64,000 nt of DNA from Butyrivibrio sp. AE2015. Lineage in GTDB: Bacteria; Bacillota; Clostridia; Lachnospirales; Lachnospiraceae. Position numbers and translations under genes: made by a program. The notes under the pieces were generated by a model. It worked only from the letters and a program-made list of their open reading frames with translations, ran no database searches and was not told the origin of the DNA. The stretch spans positions 62,001-126,000 of the forward strand of contig NZ_ATVR01000006.1 in assembly GCF_000420825.1 (NCBI RefSeq), in the 5' to 3' direction. Numbering within the stretch: the first letter of the stretch is position 1; each line of letters starts with the position of its first letter. Of the stretch, positions 1,148-29,299 are shown one piece after another.

Positions 1148-2422
1148 TCAAAATGATACTTCCAATTCTTTTTTTATCTCCATAATGCTTTTTCCGGTTC
1201 TTCTTGCAATTCCTGCTATATCATCATATTCCAGCTTTTTCCGTTTTACGTCATATCCAGTCGCTTCTTTTACGCGAACCATACCATATGGAGTCTCTAT
1301 AGTATCTATTGTTCTGGATAAGATATATCTGTTGCAAATGTTCTCTCGCACACCAATTGTGGTGGTGTTCTTAAATAATTCCTTTAATATATTCTCTCTA
1401 TCATCAAGTCTGCACATGCAAGTTAATATGACTCCCGGCCTGTTCTTTTTCATACCAACCGGTATTGTATAAGCCTCCACTGCGCCTGCCTCGAAGAGCC
1501 TTTCAGTTGCATAACCAATCTCTTCAGCTGTCATATCATCAATGTTACATGACAACTCTACTATTCTATCATTCTCATATTCATCGCTGCTTTCGCCATA
1601 TATAGTCCTTACAAAATTCCCCTGAGGAAAATCCTTTTTCCCCATACCATAGCCTATTTTTTTAACATTCATGACAGGCTGAGAAGCAAAATCAAAAGCA
1701 AAATATTTAGCTAAAGCCGCTCCTGTTGGAGTGCACAATTCTGATTTTATGCTATCACTCTCGTAACACGGAATTCCCTCCAGCAAAAGAGCTGTTGCAG
1801 GCGCTGGAACCGGTAATATACCGTGTGCACATTTCACTGTTCCTCCACCAACATTTATCGGTGACACAACAATCTTATCTGCATCAAGCTCATGCATTAA
1901 ATAGCAGACTGCAGTTATATCAGCTATTGCGTCAAGATTACCTACTTCATGGAAATGTATCTCCGAAACCGGAACTCCATGAACCTTGCTTTCAGCCTGC
2001 GCGAGAAGCTCATAAACTTCTCTGACATCACTTTTTATCTCTTTTGAGATATTTAAATTCTCAATGATGTCCTCTATGTCATAGAGCTTATTGTGATGAT
2101 GATGCCCTTCATGCTCATGGGTGTGCTCATCGTCATGGCTATGAGTAAACTCATGAGAATGTGCATGGTCATGTTCATATTCATGTGCATGATGATGCTC
2201 TTCTTCAGAATCAGGTTCTTCCTGACCTTTCACAAGAACTCTCATACGCTTACCGACTACGCCGCACTTTGTTGAATCCTCAAGCACAAATTCAACATTA
2301 GGTATTCCTATTTCATTCAGCTCTTTTTCTTTCTCTTTTACATCGTCAAAAAGTGAGATCAGCGCTGCTGTAAGCATGTCGCCCGCTATACCCATCTTGC
2401 ACTCAATATATAATGTATTCAA
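1148..2422 (-). CDS. larC: LarC, nickel insertion into the pincer cofactor
   Basis: LarC (DUF111 family) inserts nickel into the pyridinium-bis-thiocarboxylate mononucleotide cofactor used by lactate racemase and related enzymes. The N-terminus YIECKMGIAGDML matches the family's start. EIHFHEVGNLDAIADI and the C-terminal CNIDDMTAEEIGYA are family motifs. Residues about 75-110 form a very His-rich loop, a likely nickel store or delivery segment. The start is a TTG at 2422, supported by GGGAGG six bases upstream and by the family N-terminus. In Lactobacillus plantarum larC is made by programmed frameshifting; here it is one continuous 424-residue frame. It lies 67 bp downstream of hypA on the same strand. 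larE is in the window at 43731; larA and larB are not seen. Confidence 0.93.
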   Translation of the reverse strand: MNTLYIECKMGIAGDMLTAALISLFDDVKEKEKELNEIGIPNVEFVLEDSTKCGVVGKRMRVLVKGQEEPDSEEEHHHAHEYEHDHAHSHEFTHSHDDEHTHEHEGHHHHNKLYDIEDIIENLNISKEIKSDVREVYELLAQAESKVHGVPVSEIHFHEVGNLDAIADITAVCYLMHELDADKIVVSPINVGGGTVKCAHGILPVPAPATALLLEGIPCYESDSIKSELCTPTGAALAKYFAFDFASQPVMNVKKIGYGMGKKDFPQGNFVRTIYGESSDEYENDRIVELSCNIDDMTAEEIGYATERLFEAGAVEAYTIPVGMKKNRPGVILTCMCRLDDRENILKELFKNTTTIGVRENICNRYILSRTIDTIETPYGMVRVKEATGYDVKRKKLEYDDIAGIARRTGKSIMEIKKELEVSF

Positions 2423-2489: not shown

Positions 2490-2840
2490 TTATATATCTT
2501 CTATAACTATATTTTTTAATGTAATGCCTTTCCCTTCGATTATATGCGCTCTTCTTCCACCACATTCAGTACAAAGGTATCTGTTGTCACTGGTTGGAAA
2601 ATACTCACTTCCACATTCTTCACAAAGAGCTTTTACCGGCACTTCCTCGCAAACAAGCTCTGCATTCTCAAGCATTGTTCCCTTTGCCGCTTCCGGATAA
2701 TACTTATACATATAATACGGCATTACACCACTTGTTTTTCCGATCTGAACTACGATACTTTTTACATTTTTAGCATTGTTTTCTTTTGCTACATCTATGG
2801 CCAGAGCTACCATCCGTGAAATATAGCTCATTTCATGCAT
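2490..2840 (-). CDS. hypA: HypA-like nickel metallochaperone
   Basis: HypA delivers nickel to NiFe-hydrogenase, and in some species to urease. This 116-residue protein starts MHEM, and His2 is the nickel ligand in the family. It ends with a zinc site formed by CEECG and CTECG, separated by about 15 residues. AGAGGAT lies upstream of the ATG. It is followed on the same strand by larC, so the pair forms a small nickel-handling operon. No hydrogenase gene is in the window, so its client is not known from this sequence. It could serve a hydrogenase elsewhere in the genome or supply nickel for the Lar cofactor. Confidence 0.9.
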   Translation of the reverse strand: MHEMSYISRMVALAIDVAKENNAKNVKSIVVQIGKTSGVMPYYMYKYYPEAAKGTMLENAELVCEEVPVKALCEECGSEYFPTSDNRYLCTECGGRRAHIIEGKGITLKNIVIEDI

Positions 2841-4479: not shown

Positions 4480-5646
4480 TCAATTATCCAACAGTTGCTT
4501 TTCTAATTCTTCAAAGTTTATATCCGTTCTCTGCTCAAAGTTATTAAAGCTATTTTTCTTTGGAGAGATTGGCTTAGCCTTGTTGTTATAATACTCGTTT
4601 TTAATGCAGTCCTTCATAAATGCAATCGGGACATCAACGGTAGTGTTATAGGACTGCATGTAATCATAAGCCTGTTTTATCTTATCGATATCATAATCTG
4701 CACATTCAGCAATTTCTTTGATCTCTTTTACCTTGAAATAATCGTGCATAAGATCGATAAGATCATCTAAAACATCATCTTTATTGATCTTCTTCTCTTT
4801 TTTGATGCTATTTCCAACATCTTTTTTATCAACAAAGAACCTGATCCCAACAGTTTTTCTGCCACTTTTAATAGGCTCGTAGTCAACTATCAGGCTGGTT
4901 TTCTTATTTAATTCGTCTTTTGCCTTTGATAATACGTTCCTATTGAATATTTTATATTCTTTATACTTCGTTTGGCCTGTTTTCTCGACTAATTCATCGA
5001 TTTTTTCATAATCAGGAAAGTCTTTTTCAAGCTCAGCCTTGATCTTATTATCGCCTCCGGAAGTGATTATACCAAGCTCAAGCTTTAGCTCTGTCAGATT
5101 ATAATCAAAAACCTGCTCTCCATCTATTTTTTCAATGGCTTTTTTATAGTCAAATGCAGATTTTAACATCTCATATAAGCGCAAAGAATACACACTCTTA
5201 AGACTAAGAGTATCTGATAAGCTAAGTACTGTATAATCCTTTTGAAGATTGACTATTTTATCCGTTAGTGAGTTATTATAACGAAGTGTTAGAGTACCAT
5301 TTTTAAAAGATGCGTCTGTAACTACCTGGTGTGCTTCTATCTTACCATTGGCCTTATCTTTCATAAGAAGGTTCCAATCAAAAATAGTAGCACCCTTAAC
5401 CTGTCTGTCACATAACGCTTCAATGTGTTCATACAAAGATCCGGAAGTAGACTTAAACATTTTCCTTAAATCTGTACCATATATAGTAGCAACAACGTTG
5501 TTTGTTTCATCTATTTTAATATGCTGCATTCCTATGGCGAACAGTTTCTGGCTTAATGCAGTTCCTTTACCCATAGCGTTGATCAATTCATTAGACTTTT
5601 TATAACTCTGTCTAGTAATGAGTTGGTCTCGTTTTTCTTCTTTCAT
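4480..5646 (-). CDS. Rep_3-type replication initiator (RepB-like)
   Basis: Initiators of this superfamily bind iterons through two winged-helix domains and open the origin. Supporting segments are an early RQSYKKSNELINA, a first domain with LSQKLFAIGMQHI, the linker SLSDTLSLKSVYSLRLYEML (typical of Rep_3 proteins), and a second domain ending around VGIRFFVDKK. A lysine-rich, likely disordered C-terminus follows. The frame extends to an ATG at 5685, but that codon lies inside an iteron (5674-5692). The ATG at 5646 has GGGGGA just before it, although with short spacing, so I prefer 5646 (388 residues); 5685 is possible. The neighbouring iterons strongly support the call. Confidence 0.88.
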   Translation of the reverse strand: MKEEKRDQLITRQSYKKSNELINAMGKGTALSQKLFAIGMQHIKIDETNNVVATIYGTDLRKMFKSTSGSLYEHIEALCDRQVKGATIFDWNLLMKDKANGKIEAHQVVTDASFKNGTLTLRYNNSLTDKIVNLQKDYTVLSLSDTLSLKSVYSLRLYEMLKSAFDYKKAIEKIDGEQVFDYNLTELKLELGIITSGGDNKIKAELEKDFPDYEKIDELVEKTGQTKYKEYKIFNRNVLSKAKDELNKKTSLIVDYEPIKSGRKTVGIRFFVDKKDVGNSIKKEKKINKDDVLDDLIDLMHDYFKVKEIKEIAECADYDIDKIKQAYDYMQSYNTTVDVPIAFMKDCIKNEYYNNKAKPISPKKNSFNNFEQRTDINFEELEKQLLDN

Positions 5647-5673
5647 AAATCCCCCAGTTCTTTTATATACAGG

Positions 5674-6468
5674 TTCCCTTTTCATGCACCTTAGAAAAGA
5701 AATTATCTTCCTATTTTGTACACCTTTAGAATAAAAAGATATAATAACATTCCCTTTTTGTAAACCTTTTATTTTATTATATTCCTTTTTTGGTCACCTT
5801 CAAGTATTAATTGCCTATATTTTGGGGTTTTTATCAGATAAAAGCACAAAGGTTTGTTAACCATTACAGTCAATTCTAATGATTCCCTTTTTGTGCACCT
5901 TTCCCATCATCTATTCCCTTTCACTTCACTTTTGACTTTAATGGTTTGACTGATATGGTTTATTCTAATCCCTTTTTGTGCACTTTTAATACCCATTTTA
6001 GTACTTAATAATTTCATAACTTATCCCAAACATTAAAATCCATTCCCTTTTTAGTCACCTTTCATTTATATTATGCAATTTATGGCCTGATCTAAGCTCA
6101 TTTTTATTATATTGAGCATTCATTACCCCAAAACATATTTTGTTTTAGTTATCTATTAGTACCTATTTATGTAATTTTTAACGTTCCCTTTTTGTACACT
6201 TAAATGTTCCCTTTTTGGTCACCTTTAATTTTGTGACTGTTTGAAACGCCCTATTTATGCGTGTTCTGGCATCTACAGATTTAGGGATCTATTAAATATT
6301 ATATATTCCCTTTTTAGTCACCTATCTTCCCAAATACTGCACTTTACATCCCTAAACAGGTAACTTGGGGCATATTTTCACAGTTCCCTTTTTAGACACC
6401 TTATCTTCCCATTCATTCAACTTTATAATCCCTTTTTATCTACTTTAAATTCCTTTTTTAGTCACTCA
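5674..6468 (+). repeat. Replication origin iterons, about 14 copies of a 19-bp repeat
   Basis: Direct repeats with consensus TTCCCTTTTTRGTCACCTT (variants TGTGCACC and TGTACACC) start at 5674, 5708, 5750, 5782, 5883, 5914 (degenerate), 5968, 6043, 6184, 6207, 6306, 6384, 6428 and 6450. All have the same orientation. Spacing is irregular, from 22 to about 140 bp. Arrays of this kind beside a Rep_3 initiator are the usual origin and copy-control element of theta-replicating plasmids and chromids. The first copies overlap the rep promoter and the upstream end of the rep frame. Confidence 0.93.
5736..5764 (-). promoter_or_regulatory. Predicted rep promoter overlapping an iteron
   Basis: Read on the minus strand, TTTACA at 5764-5759 and TATCTT at 5741-5736 are separated by 17 bp. 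The -35 hexamer lies inside the iteron at 5750-5768. Rep bound to this iteron would be expected to block its own promoter. That is the usual autoregulation in such plasmids, but here it is inferred only from overlap. Confidence 0.5.
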
Positions 6469-8918: not shown

Positions 8919-9743
8919 ATGCGAATTATTGCATTTAGTAACCAAAAGGGTGGAGTTGCAAAAACTACTTCCAGTTACGCAATGGCAGTAGGCCTTGCAA
9001 AGAGAGGATATCAGGTTTTAGTTGTAGATGCTGATCCTCAGGAAAATCTTTCAATGACAGCAGGAATCGATCTTAATGAGGTAGATCCTGATCCGGAGGA
9101 TATTGAAGCATTAACTCCGGAGCAGAGAAGTTACTTTGAAGAGAATGTACCTGCAAAATTGTTTGAGGTAATGGCTGGCGATAAGGATATAAATAAAGCA
9201 ATTATTCCTATTGCTGAGAATTTAGATCTCATAGTTGGCGGTATTGATCTTGCATCTGCAGACATGACATTCTCTATGTTGGGACGTGAAAAGCTTATAA
9301 AAGAAGCATTTAAAAAGATCAAAAAAGAGTATGATTTTTGTATATTTGACTGTAGCCCTGCTTTAGGCGTTGTTTTAATGAATATACTTACAGTTGCAGA
9401 TGAAGTAATTATTCCACTGGAGCCAGGAGCATTTTCATTACAGGGACTTTCAAGGTTATACAAATTTATTGGCCAGATCCACGATTTTACCAATGATAAG
9501 CTTAAAGTGGATGGAATATTAGTAACTAAGGTTAGAAACACTGCAAACGCCAAAATATGGATAAATGATATAGAAGAGAAAGCTGATCTTCTTGGAACAA
9601 CAGTTTATAAGTCAAAAATAAGGCTTAATGTCTCAGTTGAAGAGGCACAGACCATGAAAATGGATCTGTTTGAATATGCGGGCGGTTCAAGCGCAGCAAG
9701 AGATTATGATGACTTTATTGATGAATTCTTAGGGGAGGATTAA
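8919..9743 (+). CDS. parA: ParA-family partition ATPase
   Basis: This 274-residue Walker-type ATPase segregates the replicon by forming ATP-dependent gradients on the nucleoid. It begins MRIIAFSNQKGGVAKTT, with the deviant Walker A KGGVAKTT at residues 10-17. Walker A' VLVVDADPQ and Walker B FCIFDCSPALG follow. There is no N-terminal helix-turn-helix extension, so it resembles Soj or type Ib ParA, and repression probably falls to its partner. A TAGGAGGGG ribosome-binding site precedes the ATG. The next gene starts two bases after the stop. Confidence 0.95.
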   Translation: MRIIAFSNQKGGVAKTTSSYAMAVGLAKRGYQVLVVDADPQENLSMTAGIDLNEVDPDPEDIEALTPEQRSYFEENVPAKLFEVMAGDKDINKAIIPIAENLDLIVGGIDLASADMTFSMLGREKLIKEAFKKIKKEYDFCIFDCSPALGVVLMNILTVADEVIIPLEPGAFSLQGLSRLYKFIGQIHDFTNDKLKVDGILVTKVRNTANAKIWINDIEEKADLLGTTVYKSKIRLNVSVEEAQTMKMDLFEYAGGSSAARDYDDFIDEFLGED

Positions 9744-27337: not shown

Positions 27338-28216
27338 ATGCTTAAATACGAATCTGTCAGCGAATTAGTAGCTGAAGCTGAAAAAAGGAATATAAAGATA
27401 AGTGAACTGGTCTTGGAAGATCAGGCTAAAAGCATGGAAAAAGAGCCACTTGAACTCTATGAAAAAATGGAGATCAGCTTTCAGGTCATGAAAGATTCAA
27501 TAAAAGAAGGTATGAAAAAAGACCAGAAATCCATGTCAGGTCTTACCGGTGGCGAGGGCTATCTTATGAACAAATATGCCGCTACAGGTGGGATTAGCGG
27601 GAACTTCATGACAAAAGCAATGGCCAGAGCTTTGGCAGTAGCAGGATGTAACGCTTCAATGGGAAGGATTGTTGCAGCTCCTACAGCCGGAAGTTGTGGT
27701 ATTTTACCTGGATGTCTTGTGTCGCTTTATGAGGACAGAGGCTTTGAAGAGAAAGACGTGGTCATGGCCATGTTCACAGCCGGCGCAATCGGGATGGTTA
27801 TAGCAGAAAAATCAAGTGTGGCAGGAGCTCAGGGAGGTTGTCAGGCTGAGTGTGGAAGTGCTTCAGCTATGGCTGCAGCAGCACTTGTAGAAGTAATGGG
27901 GGGAACACCATCTCAGTGCGCAGATGCCTGTGCGATGGCAATTTCCAATCAGATGGGACTTGTCTGTGATCCTGTAGGCGGACTTGTTGAGATACCATGC
28001 ATAAAAAGAAATGTATCAGGCCTAGCAATTGCTTTTTCAAGTGCAGATATGGCACTTGCGGGAATCAGGGCCAATATTCCGGCTGATGAATGCATTGATG
28101 CAATGAAAGAAGTTGGAGATGCACTTCCGGCTTCATTAAAAGAAACCGCTGGCGGTGGACTTGCCACAACGCCAACGGGTCGAAAACTTCGTGATAAAGT
28201 TTTTGGTCTTACTTAA
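27338..28216 (+). CDS. sdaAA: L-serine dehydratase, alpha subunit
   Basis: The 292-residue catalytic subunit carries AAPTAGSCGILPGCLVS and the cysteines that bind the 4Fe-4S cluster (SCGILPGC, ADACAMA, VCDPVGG, EIPCIKRN). It follows the beta subunit by 17 bp. Its 3' end overlaps the convergent NifX-like/SlyD gene by eight bases, with no terminator between them. Confidence 0.96.
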   Translation: MLKYESVSELVAEAEKRNIKISELVLEDQAKSMEKEPLELYEKMEISFQVMKDSIKEGMKKDQKSMSGLTGGEGYLMNKYAATGGISGNFMTKAMARALAVAGCNASMGRIVAAPTAGSCGILPGCLVSLYEDRGFEEKDVVMAMFTAGAIGMVIAEKSSVAGAQGGCQAECGSASAMAAAALVEVMGGTPSQCADACAMAISNQMGLVCDPVGGLVEIPCIKRNVSGLAIAFSSADMALAGIRANIPADECIDAMKEVGDALPASLKETAGGGLATTPTGRKLRDKVFGLT

Positions 28217-29120
28217 CTTCTACAAGTTCAATCTTGAAATTAAGCTCTTTGCCAGCCATTTCATGGTTGGCATCTAATGTGATAGTTGTATCAGTCTTAC
28301 CTACAACTTTAACAGGGAATGGTCTTCCGTACATATCCTGAAGGTAAACCTTTTGATCAACTGTCAGGTCCTCTGAACCGGGAAGCTCAGCGATCTCTAC
28401 AGTGAAGATAGCTGTAGGATCTGCTTCTCCATAAGCTTCTTCAGGCATGAGATGCACATCGAGTGTCTCACCTACGTTCATGTTAGCAACTGCCTTGTCA
28501 AATCCATAGATCATCATGCCTGCGCCACATACGAACTCAAGAGGCTCTCCTCTGTCATAGGATGAGTCAAACTTTGTTCCGTCGTTGAAAGTACCAATGT
28601 AGTGTGTACGGCATGTCTTGCCAACATTTTTTCCTTCGAACGAAGGAGCTGAATGACAACCGCTGCATCCGCCACAGCCACCTGAAGCACAACCGCCTTC
28701 TTCATCTCCGCAGTCGCTTCCGCAACCACCCTCATCATGGTGTCCACAGCTATGTCCATCCTCGTGGTCGCTGCATGTGTGGCCCTCACCGTGATGGTCG
28801 CAATTTACACCAGAGCTCTCAAGGTTTCCGCTAAGGTAAGCTTCTACTACTTCATCAGTATTTCCAGATGTTCCGGCGCATACTTCAATGCCGTTCTCTT
28901 CAAGAGCTGAAAAAGCTCCCCCGCCGATTCCACCACAGATAAGAACATCAATTCCCTTATCGCCAAGAAGTCCGGCTAAAGCACCATGACCGCTTCCGTT
29001 TGAACTTATTACTTCTGAGGATACGACTTTTTTGTCCTCTACTGTATAAATCTTAAACTCGCTTGTATGTCCAAAGTGCTGGAAAACTTCACCGTTTTCA
29101 TAAGTAACTGCAATTTTCAT
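28209..29120 (-). CDS. Fusion of NifX-like domain, Cys/His-rich linker and SlyD-type FKBP isomerase
   Basis: The 303-residue protein has three parts. Residues 1-105 match the dinitrogenase iron-molybdenum cofactor (NifX/NifB-C) fold: MKIAVTYENGEVFQHFGH, VLICGGIGGGAFSALEENGI. About 108-165 is packed with Cys, His, Gly and acidic residues. About 168-303 is an FKBP of the SlyD class (THYIGTFNDGTKFDSSYDRG, LMPEEAYGEADPTAIF), with the inserted flap. SlyD is a prolyl isomerase and nickel chaperone whose metal tail is normally C-terminal; here it is internal. ATG at 29120 has AAAGGAT at good distance. A metal-delivery role is inferred. Confidence 0.88.
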   Translation of the reverse strand: MKIAVTYENGEVFQHFGHTSEFKIYTVEDKKVVSSEVISSNGSGHGALAGLLGDKGIDVLICGGIGGGAFSALEENGIEVCAGTSGNTDEVVEAYLSGNLESSGVNCDHHGEGHTCSDHEDGHSCGHHDEGGCGSDCGDEEGGCASGGCGGCSGCHSAPSFEGKNVGKTCRTHYIGTFNDGTKFDSSYDRGEPLEFVCGAGMMIYGFDKAVANMNVGETLDVHLMPEEAYGEADPTAIFTVEIAELPGSEDLTVDQKVYLQDMYGRPFPVKVVGKTDTTITLDANHEMAGKELNFKIELVEVK

Positions 29121-29299
29121 TATCATTATCCTTTCTTATTAAGAGTCACTAGAGCATATTATCATAAATCGCCAAAAAAGCAAAATACAGTAAAAAAACG
29201 CGCAATAGTGCATGTTTAATGCTAAAATGGGTAGTTGTACAATTTTTGTATCAATAAAAAAGTATTGTTTTAGGGCAGAGCTCTAAGAAAGGTGGAACA

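Follow-up and report, generated by a model that had tools for sequence, protein, structure and literature searches.

A SlyD-type prolyl isomerase fused behind a NifX-like domain and a Cys/His-rich linker is encoded within the stretch of DNA analysed here (64,000 nucleotides of contig NZ_ATVR01000006.1 from Butyrivibrio sp. AE2015, hereafter the window). The fusion is real and conserved across anaerobic gut bacteria. As far as its function can be judged from sequence, we tentatively favour a SlyD-type metallochaperone in which the Cys/His tail of a NifX-like protein is continued by SlyD and the metal tail therefore lies N-terminal of SlyD. The gene and its parts are located in the window as follows:

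28209..29126, minus strand: fusion gene of NifX-like domain, Cys/His linker and SlyD-type FKBP, 305 aa (open reading frame, Pfam matches, architecture shared by 31 of the 200 family genomes)
28809..29120, minus strand: NifX-like domain (PF02579), residues 3-106 (Pfam, model and alignment)
28635..28802, minus strand: Cys/His/acidic linker, residues 109-164, comprising a NifX-type tail and a Cys/Gly-rich stretch beside SlyD
28212..28634, minus strand: residues 165-305, FKBP prolyl isomerase of the SlyD type including the insert-in-flap domain, without C-terminal metal tail

The open reading frame (28209-29126, minus strand) comprises 305 aa and a stop codon in a single frame with zero internal stops. 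The gene end at 29120 given in a preliminary description corresponds to an alternative ATG at residue 3. PF02579 was matched by residues 11-98 with 78.6 bits (4.6e-22; curated cut-off 26.3) and PF00254 by residues 168-244 with 75.6 bits (3.8e-21), well over its curated cut-off. With these two matches in an uninterrupted frame, the description was right to place a NifX-like and a SlyD-type domain in one polypeptide. An AlphaFold2 model built on 59 aligned fusions (mean pLDDT 82.9, pTM 0.46) consists of two confidently predicted domains and an unstructured stretch, and leaves the mutual placement of the domains loose.

The search for further NifX-FKBP fusions that the description had proposed recovered the same architecture, at full length, in 31 of the 200 family genomes sampled, each genus being represented once, and in 4 of the 398 sampled from the phylum. 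In a scan of named genomes, the best 80 of 575 loci contained 63 full-length fusions, 1 truncated at a contig end, 11 stand-alone SlyDs and 5 NifX-like proteins; these 80 were chosen by similarity to the fusion, and 63 of 80 is not a frequency. Among the named holders are Blautia glucerasea, Coprococcus comes, Mediterraneibacter catenae, Bilifractor porci and isolates of Pseudobutyrivibrio and Butyrivibrio as well as, outside the family, Anaerovibrio lipolyticus. The chance that the joint frame is an artefact of assembly or frame, raised in the description as a possible objection, is negligible, and this explanation was rejected. Besides the uninterrupted frame, 97 fused sequences were collected, of which 94 are distinct when compared over the last 250 residues, and in Lachnospira eligens ATCC 27750 a single annotated CDS on the closed 627-kb plasmid matches query residues 1-304 in two segments, at 83% coverage. 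Two annotated records holding most of the fusion name only the FKBP-type isomerase, and the L. eligens CDS is called FKBP-type peptidyl-prolyl cis-trans isomerase. No description of the fusion was found in the PMC literature searched, which leaves out most subscription papers. A search of 50,697 phage records gave one near full-length match, 64% identical and spanning 99% of the query, at 1295-2170 of MT836829.1; this unannotated record of 11,229 bases from human faeces is perhaps bacterial DNA under a wrong label.

The FKBP half (residues 168-304) aligns with FKBP12 carrying the SlyD insert, and the insert-in-flap part runs to the C-terminus. The top Foldseek matches were the SlyD-type structures 4odm, 5i7q and 5i7p, with the PF02579 structures 2yx6 and 1o13 ranking lower. 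Y176, F186, D187, I206 and Y232, which we take to be the counterparts of active-site residues of FKBP12, sit in invariant columns of 31 fusions. FKBP and insert-in-flap chaperone domain are thus shared with the SlyDs of E. coli, H. pylori and T. thermophilus, and the tailed SlyDs also possess a flexible Cys/His/acidic stretch. In the fusion, however, this stretch precedes the FKBP domain instead of following it, the protein ends with ELVEVK, and a NifX-like domain is added. The C-terminal metal tail is variable among SlyDs and absent in some. By sequence reading, 17 of 18 stand-alone SlyDs of the sample have no metal tail; this type of isomerase therefore does not need one, which counts against the metallochaperone reading.

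The linker contains 9 Cys, 8 His and 12 Asp/Glu in its 56 residues, while only 10 Cys and His occur in the remaining 249 residues (hypergeometric p 7e-8 for the enrichment). A joining stretch of about 55 residues dominated by Cys, His and acidic residues, as had been described, was thereby confirmed by count. Its CxHH opening is nearly fixed among the 59 aligned fusions (C109 in 59, H111 in 58, H112 in 59), and four later cysteines are kept in 53-58 of them (C127 in 58, C118 in 56, C157 in 54, C154 in 53). Judged from the alignment, this conservation exceeds what compositional drift would retain. Residues 110-156 of the model (112-158 of the 305) have a pLDDT below 50 and are predicted to be unstructured. 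Across 90 of the 97 fused sequences, the linker measures 26-70 residues with 4-11 Cys and 3-17 His; the linker pattern found no match in the other seven, which were left out.

In the NifX-like half, H17 and C64 are present in 59 of the 59 aligned fusions and H47 in 58, and these three residues form a candidate holding site. The domain belongs to PF02579 by score as well as by fold (Foldseek matches 2yx6 and 1o13). It is the same domain as in stand-alone Nitro_FeMo-Co proteins, helix-turn-helix (DUF134)-NifX fusions, MrpORP and the orange protein 2wfb. The curated NifX equivalog model TIGR02663 (cut-off 112 bits) gave a score of 14.7, and the MrpORP model NF041136 scored 87.5 bits against 450, with only profile positions 264-365 matched; the half is thus neither a NifX equivalog nor an MrpORP by these models. 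The nearest solved structures by sequence are those of TM1816 from Thermotoga maritima (1o13, 1t3v; E about 1e-12). TM1816 is a single-domain protein and, unlike the fusion, lacks a Cys at the position aligned with C64.

The presence of a NifX-like domain could suggest a protein related to nitrogenase or FeMo-cofactor. Beyond the low TIGR02663 score, the nitrogenase-like family PF00148 does not track the fusion (9 of 31 fusion genomes against 48 of the 169 other family genomes, p 1), and the genome of Butyrivibrio sp. AE2015 gave no PF00148 match at E <= 1e-10, in agreement with the earlier remark that nitrogenase genes are missing. Such a relation is highly improbable and was rejected.

The metallochaperone reading that we favour would assign a task to each part of the chain. 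Ni, Zn, Cu or Fe would be loaded as soft divalent metal by the flexible tail; near H17, H47 and C64, the NifX-like domain would keep either metal or a small cluster of the Fe-S type; and the SlyD half would hold and isomerise an unfolded or apo metalloprotein. Candidate clients would be Fe-S assembly proteins, Fe-S dehydratases and, where present, Ni enzymes. Metal bound to the tail may turn the isomerase down, by analogy with the effect reported for nickel on SlyD of E. coli and H. pylori. In these anaerobes, the protein would help to mature or protect metalloproteins in general and would not serve one dedicated enzyme. PMC10653786 reports that E. coli SlyD interacts with IscS, SufS and IscU, H. 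pylori SlyD with MisS/MisU and both with metal enzymes, and that nickel represses the H. pylori isomerase; according to PMC7055735, as many as 7 Ni can be bound by SlyD of E. coli, with reversible inhibition of its isomerase activity. Given these interactions with desulfurases and IscU-type scaffolds and this inhibition by nickel, a chaperone handling metal or clusters appears to be the most economical explanation. The two confidently modelled domains with a disordered linker between them and the Cys/His conservation in linker and NifX half across the 59 fusions are consistent with it. Also in its favour are the invariant counterparts of the FKBP12 active-site residues, the Cys/His-bearing tails of the non-fused relatives and the rubrerythrin-, rhodanese- and thioredoxin-like genes close to some NifX-tail paralogues. 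The NifX-like domain of NifB, on the other hand, is described as dispensable for activity in PMC5715403, which speaks against this reading.

A comparison with unfused NifX-like proteins was informative on the origin of the linker. Behind the domain, at the same position as in the fusion, a Cys/His-bearing tail occurs in 53 of 53 complete non-fused relatives (54 rows less the incomplete row L081); these were retrieved with tail-containing queries and include a few near-identical proteins, and the count should not be read as a frequency among NifX-like proteins at large. In 45 of the tails there are 3 or more Cys and 4 or more His, 45 start with CxHH by pattern, and 4 are only 13-16 residues long. 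The HFG motif is present in all 53 relatives and the C64-type Cys, by pattern, in 45. The Bacillota relatives thus share the HFG motif and the tail with the fusion; in them the tail is the end of the protein, whereas in the fusion SlyD follows. Since the tail is found there in all the relatives examined, the NifX tail most likely existed before SlyD was joined to it, and the linker most likely corresponds to the C-terminal tail usual in this NifX-like group. The idea of a new internal metal reservoir was consequently given up. The Cys/Gly-rich half beside SlyD is more developed in the fusions. From the proposed new kind of metallochaperone, a variant of the SlyD kind remains, in which the NifX-like domain and the position of the tail on the N-terminal side are new.

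The same tails fit a possible, if doubtful, alternative, namely a metal buffer joined to an ordinary foldase. The tail would soak up surplus metal, the FKBP would be a general isomerase or holdase, and the NifX-like domain would have no function in delivery. The occurrence of the tail on NifX-like proteins without SlyD agrees with this, and so does a SlyD at L159 (5827-6429) that keeps a Cys-rich N-terminal stretch without a NifX domain, by reading the sole such case among the 18 stand-alone SlyDs. A role of the NifX half is, in turn, indicated by the near-invariance of H17, H47 and C64, and fused proteins outnumber stand-alone SlyDs of the same type by 31 to 6 genomes in the family sample. 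No genome of that sample has both forms, nor has any among the PF00254 matches listed; as only about 0.9 joint genomes would be expected by chance, mutual exclusion is not claimed.

The tree of SlyD domains (a sample of 55 fused and 18 stand-alone; 142 columns, 6 of 70 inner branches starred) bears on both readings. The label fused or stand-alone requires 7 changes on it, 1 of them forced by starred branches. Stand-alone SlyDs from the family (L034, L036, L154, L159) as well as L156 and L158 fall among fused copies, and nine further ones (four from the family, five from Negativicutes) form one starred group within the mostly fused part. With few forks resolved, this nesting suggests repeated loss of the NifX half, which looks dispensable in some lineages; it counts against the metallochaperone and in favour of buffer and foldase. 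In the tree of NifX-like domains (a sample of 41 fused and 53 other), 33 of the 41 fused copies group together with support 84, not starred, and three helix-turn-helix-type proteins are among them. The copy from the window and 7 other fused copies lie outside this group without resolved placement.

The gene neighbourhood named no client. The commonest neighbour family, an ABC-transporter ATPase by sequence, was found at 5 of 31 fusion loci and the next, a MATE-like transporter by sequence, at 4 of 31; both are generic. Clustering of the neighbour proteins thus gave no operon or partner gene above 5 of 31 loci, with contig ends cutting several loci and the fusions of L070, L077 and L079 not joined to the fusion cluster, though present when shorter loci at the same places are taken. 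The missing partner weighs against the metallochaperone and is in line with buffer and foldase; the lack of a conserved neighbourhood also fits a general helper. In the window, the gene is convergent with serine dehydratase genes and divergent from a flotillin-like gene, and a scan for promoters and terminators revealed nothing above shuffles. Further genes of the window are:

1148-2422, minus strand: LarC (PF01969), with a His-rich stretch
2490-2840, minus strand: HypA (PF01155), just upstream of LarC
4480-5685, minus strand: Rep3-type initiator, 61% identical to its nearest relative on a plasmid of Butyrivibrio proteoclasticus B316
8919-9743, plus strand: ParA-like gene

The Rep3 initiator and the ParA-like gene give the window the appearance of a secondary replicon. 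Pfam confirmed the hypA and larC that had been noted on this replicon, and the LarC does carry a His-rich stretch; no larE turned up among the 41 proteins of the window that were scanned by Pfam, a subset of the open reading frames. As hypA and larC lie about 25 kb from the fusion gene and no neighbour family recurs at more than those few loci, their nearness does not indicate a partnership.

A chaperone dedicated to supplying nickel to lactate racemase or a [NiFe]-type hydrogenase, acting with HypA/LarC, was considered in view of the metal enzymes in the 31 fusion and 169 other family genomes; all p-values are uncorrected and ignore relatedness and the number of tests. PF00374 was found in 8 of 31 against 13 of 169 genomes (p 0.0066), and any of LarA, PF00374 and urease in 16 of 31 against 43 of 169 (p 0.005). 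The genome of Butyrivibrio sp. AE2015 itself has one PF00374 match, one LarA (contig C12) and two HypA (the second on contig C33). The association was weaker for urease (4/31 against 8/169, p 0.095), for HypA (12/31 against 39/169, p 0.076; 51 genomes at >40 bits, 52 over the profile cut-off) and for LarA (8/31 against 27/169, p 0.20; 35 genomes at >=90 bits, 53 without this limit), and from these counts neither HypA nor LarA is needed. LarA, PF00374 and urease are all absent from 15 of the 31 fusion genomes, 8 of which also lack a match to the prismane family (HCP/CODH). This family, PF03063, is enriched (20/31 against 72/169, p 0.03), but it mixes HCP and CODH and was therefore set aside as nickel evidence. 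In fusion genomes, the PF00374 matches are confined to roughly the first 70 of the 508 profile positions and may represent remote membrane-complex subunits instead of typical hydrogenases. The link to nickel is weak; some hosts may use the fusion for nickel, but this is unlikely as the general reason for it, and a dedicated nickel chaperone is improbable.

A stronger version of the favoured metallochaperone reading would be a folding-coupled cofactor insertase, widespread in anaerobic gut Firmicutes, in which one chain couples a domain holding metal or an Fe-S cluster, a metal-loading tail and a client-holding prolyl isomerase. This is rather unlikely; if true, cofactor delivery and client folding would occur within the same complex. 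SlyD has been linked to both nickel delivery and Fe-S biogenesis, and its natural fusion to a NifX-like domain offers a single-chain test of how foldase and metal store cooperate, in gut genera as common as Blautia, Coprococcus, Lachnospira and Butyrivibrio.

Some of the unfused NifX-like relatives stand alone and others carry a helix-turn-helix-like part at the N-terminus, and in some annotated plasmid records the gene matching the NifX half is named DUF134 domain-containing. Paralogues with the NifX tail were observed at L042, L044, L049, L080, L084, L087 and L091, several of them with the helix-turn-helix-like part. Next to them lie genes resembling CoA-disulfide reductase/rhodanese, rubrerythrin, thioredoxin or Crp (named by sequence reading, not by family search), which hints at a redox or sulfur role of these paralogues.
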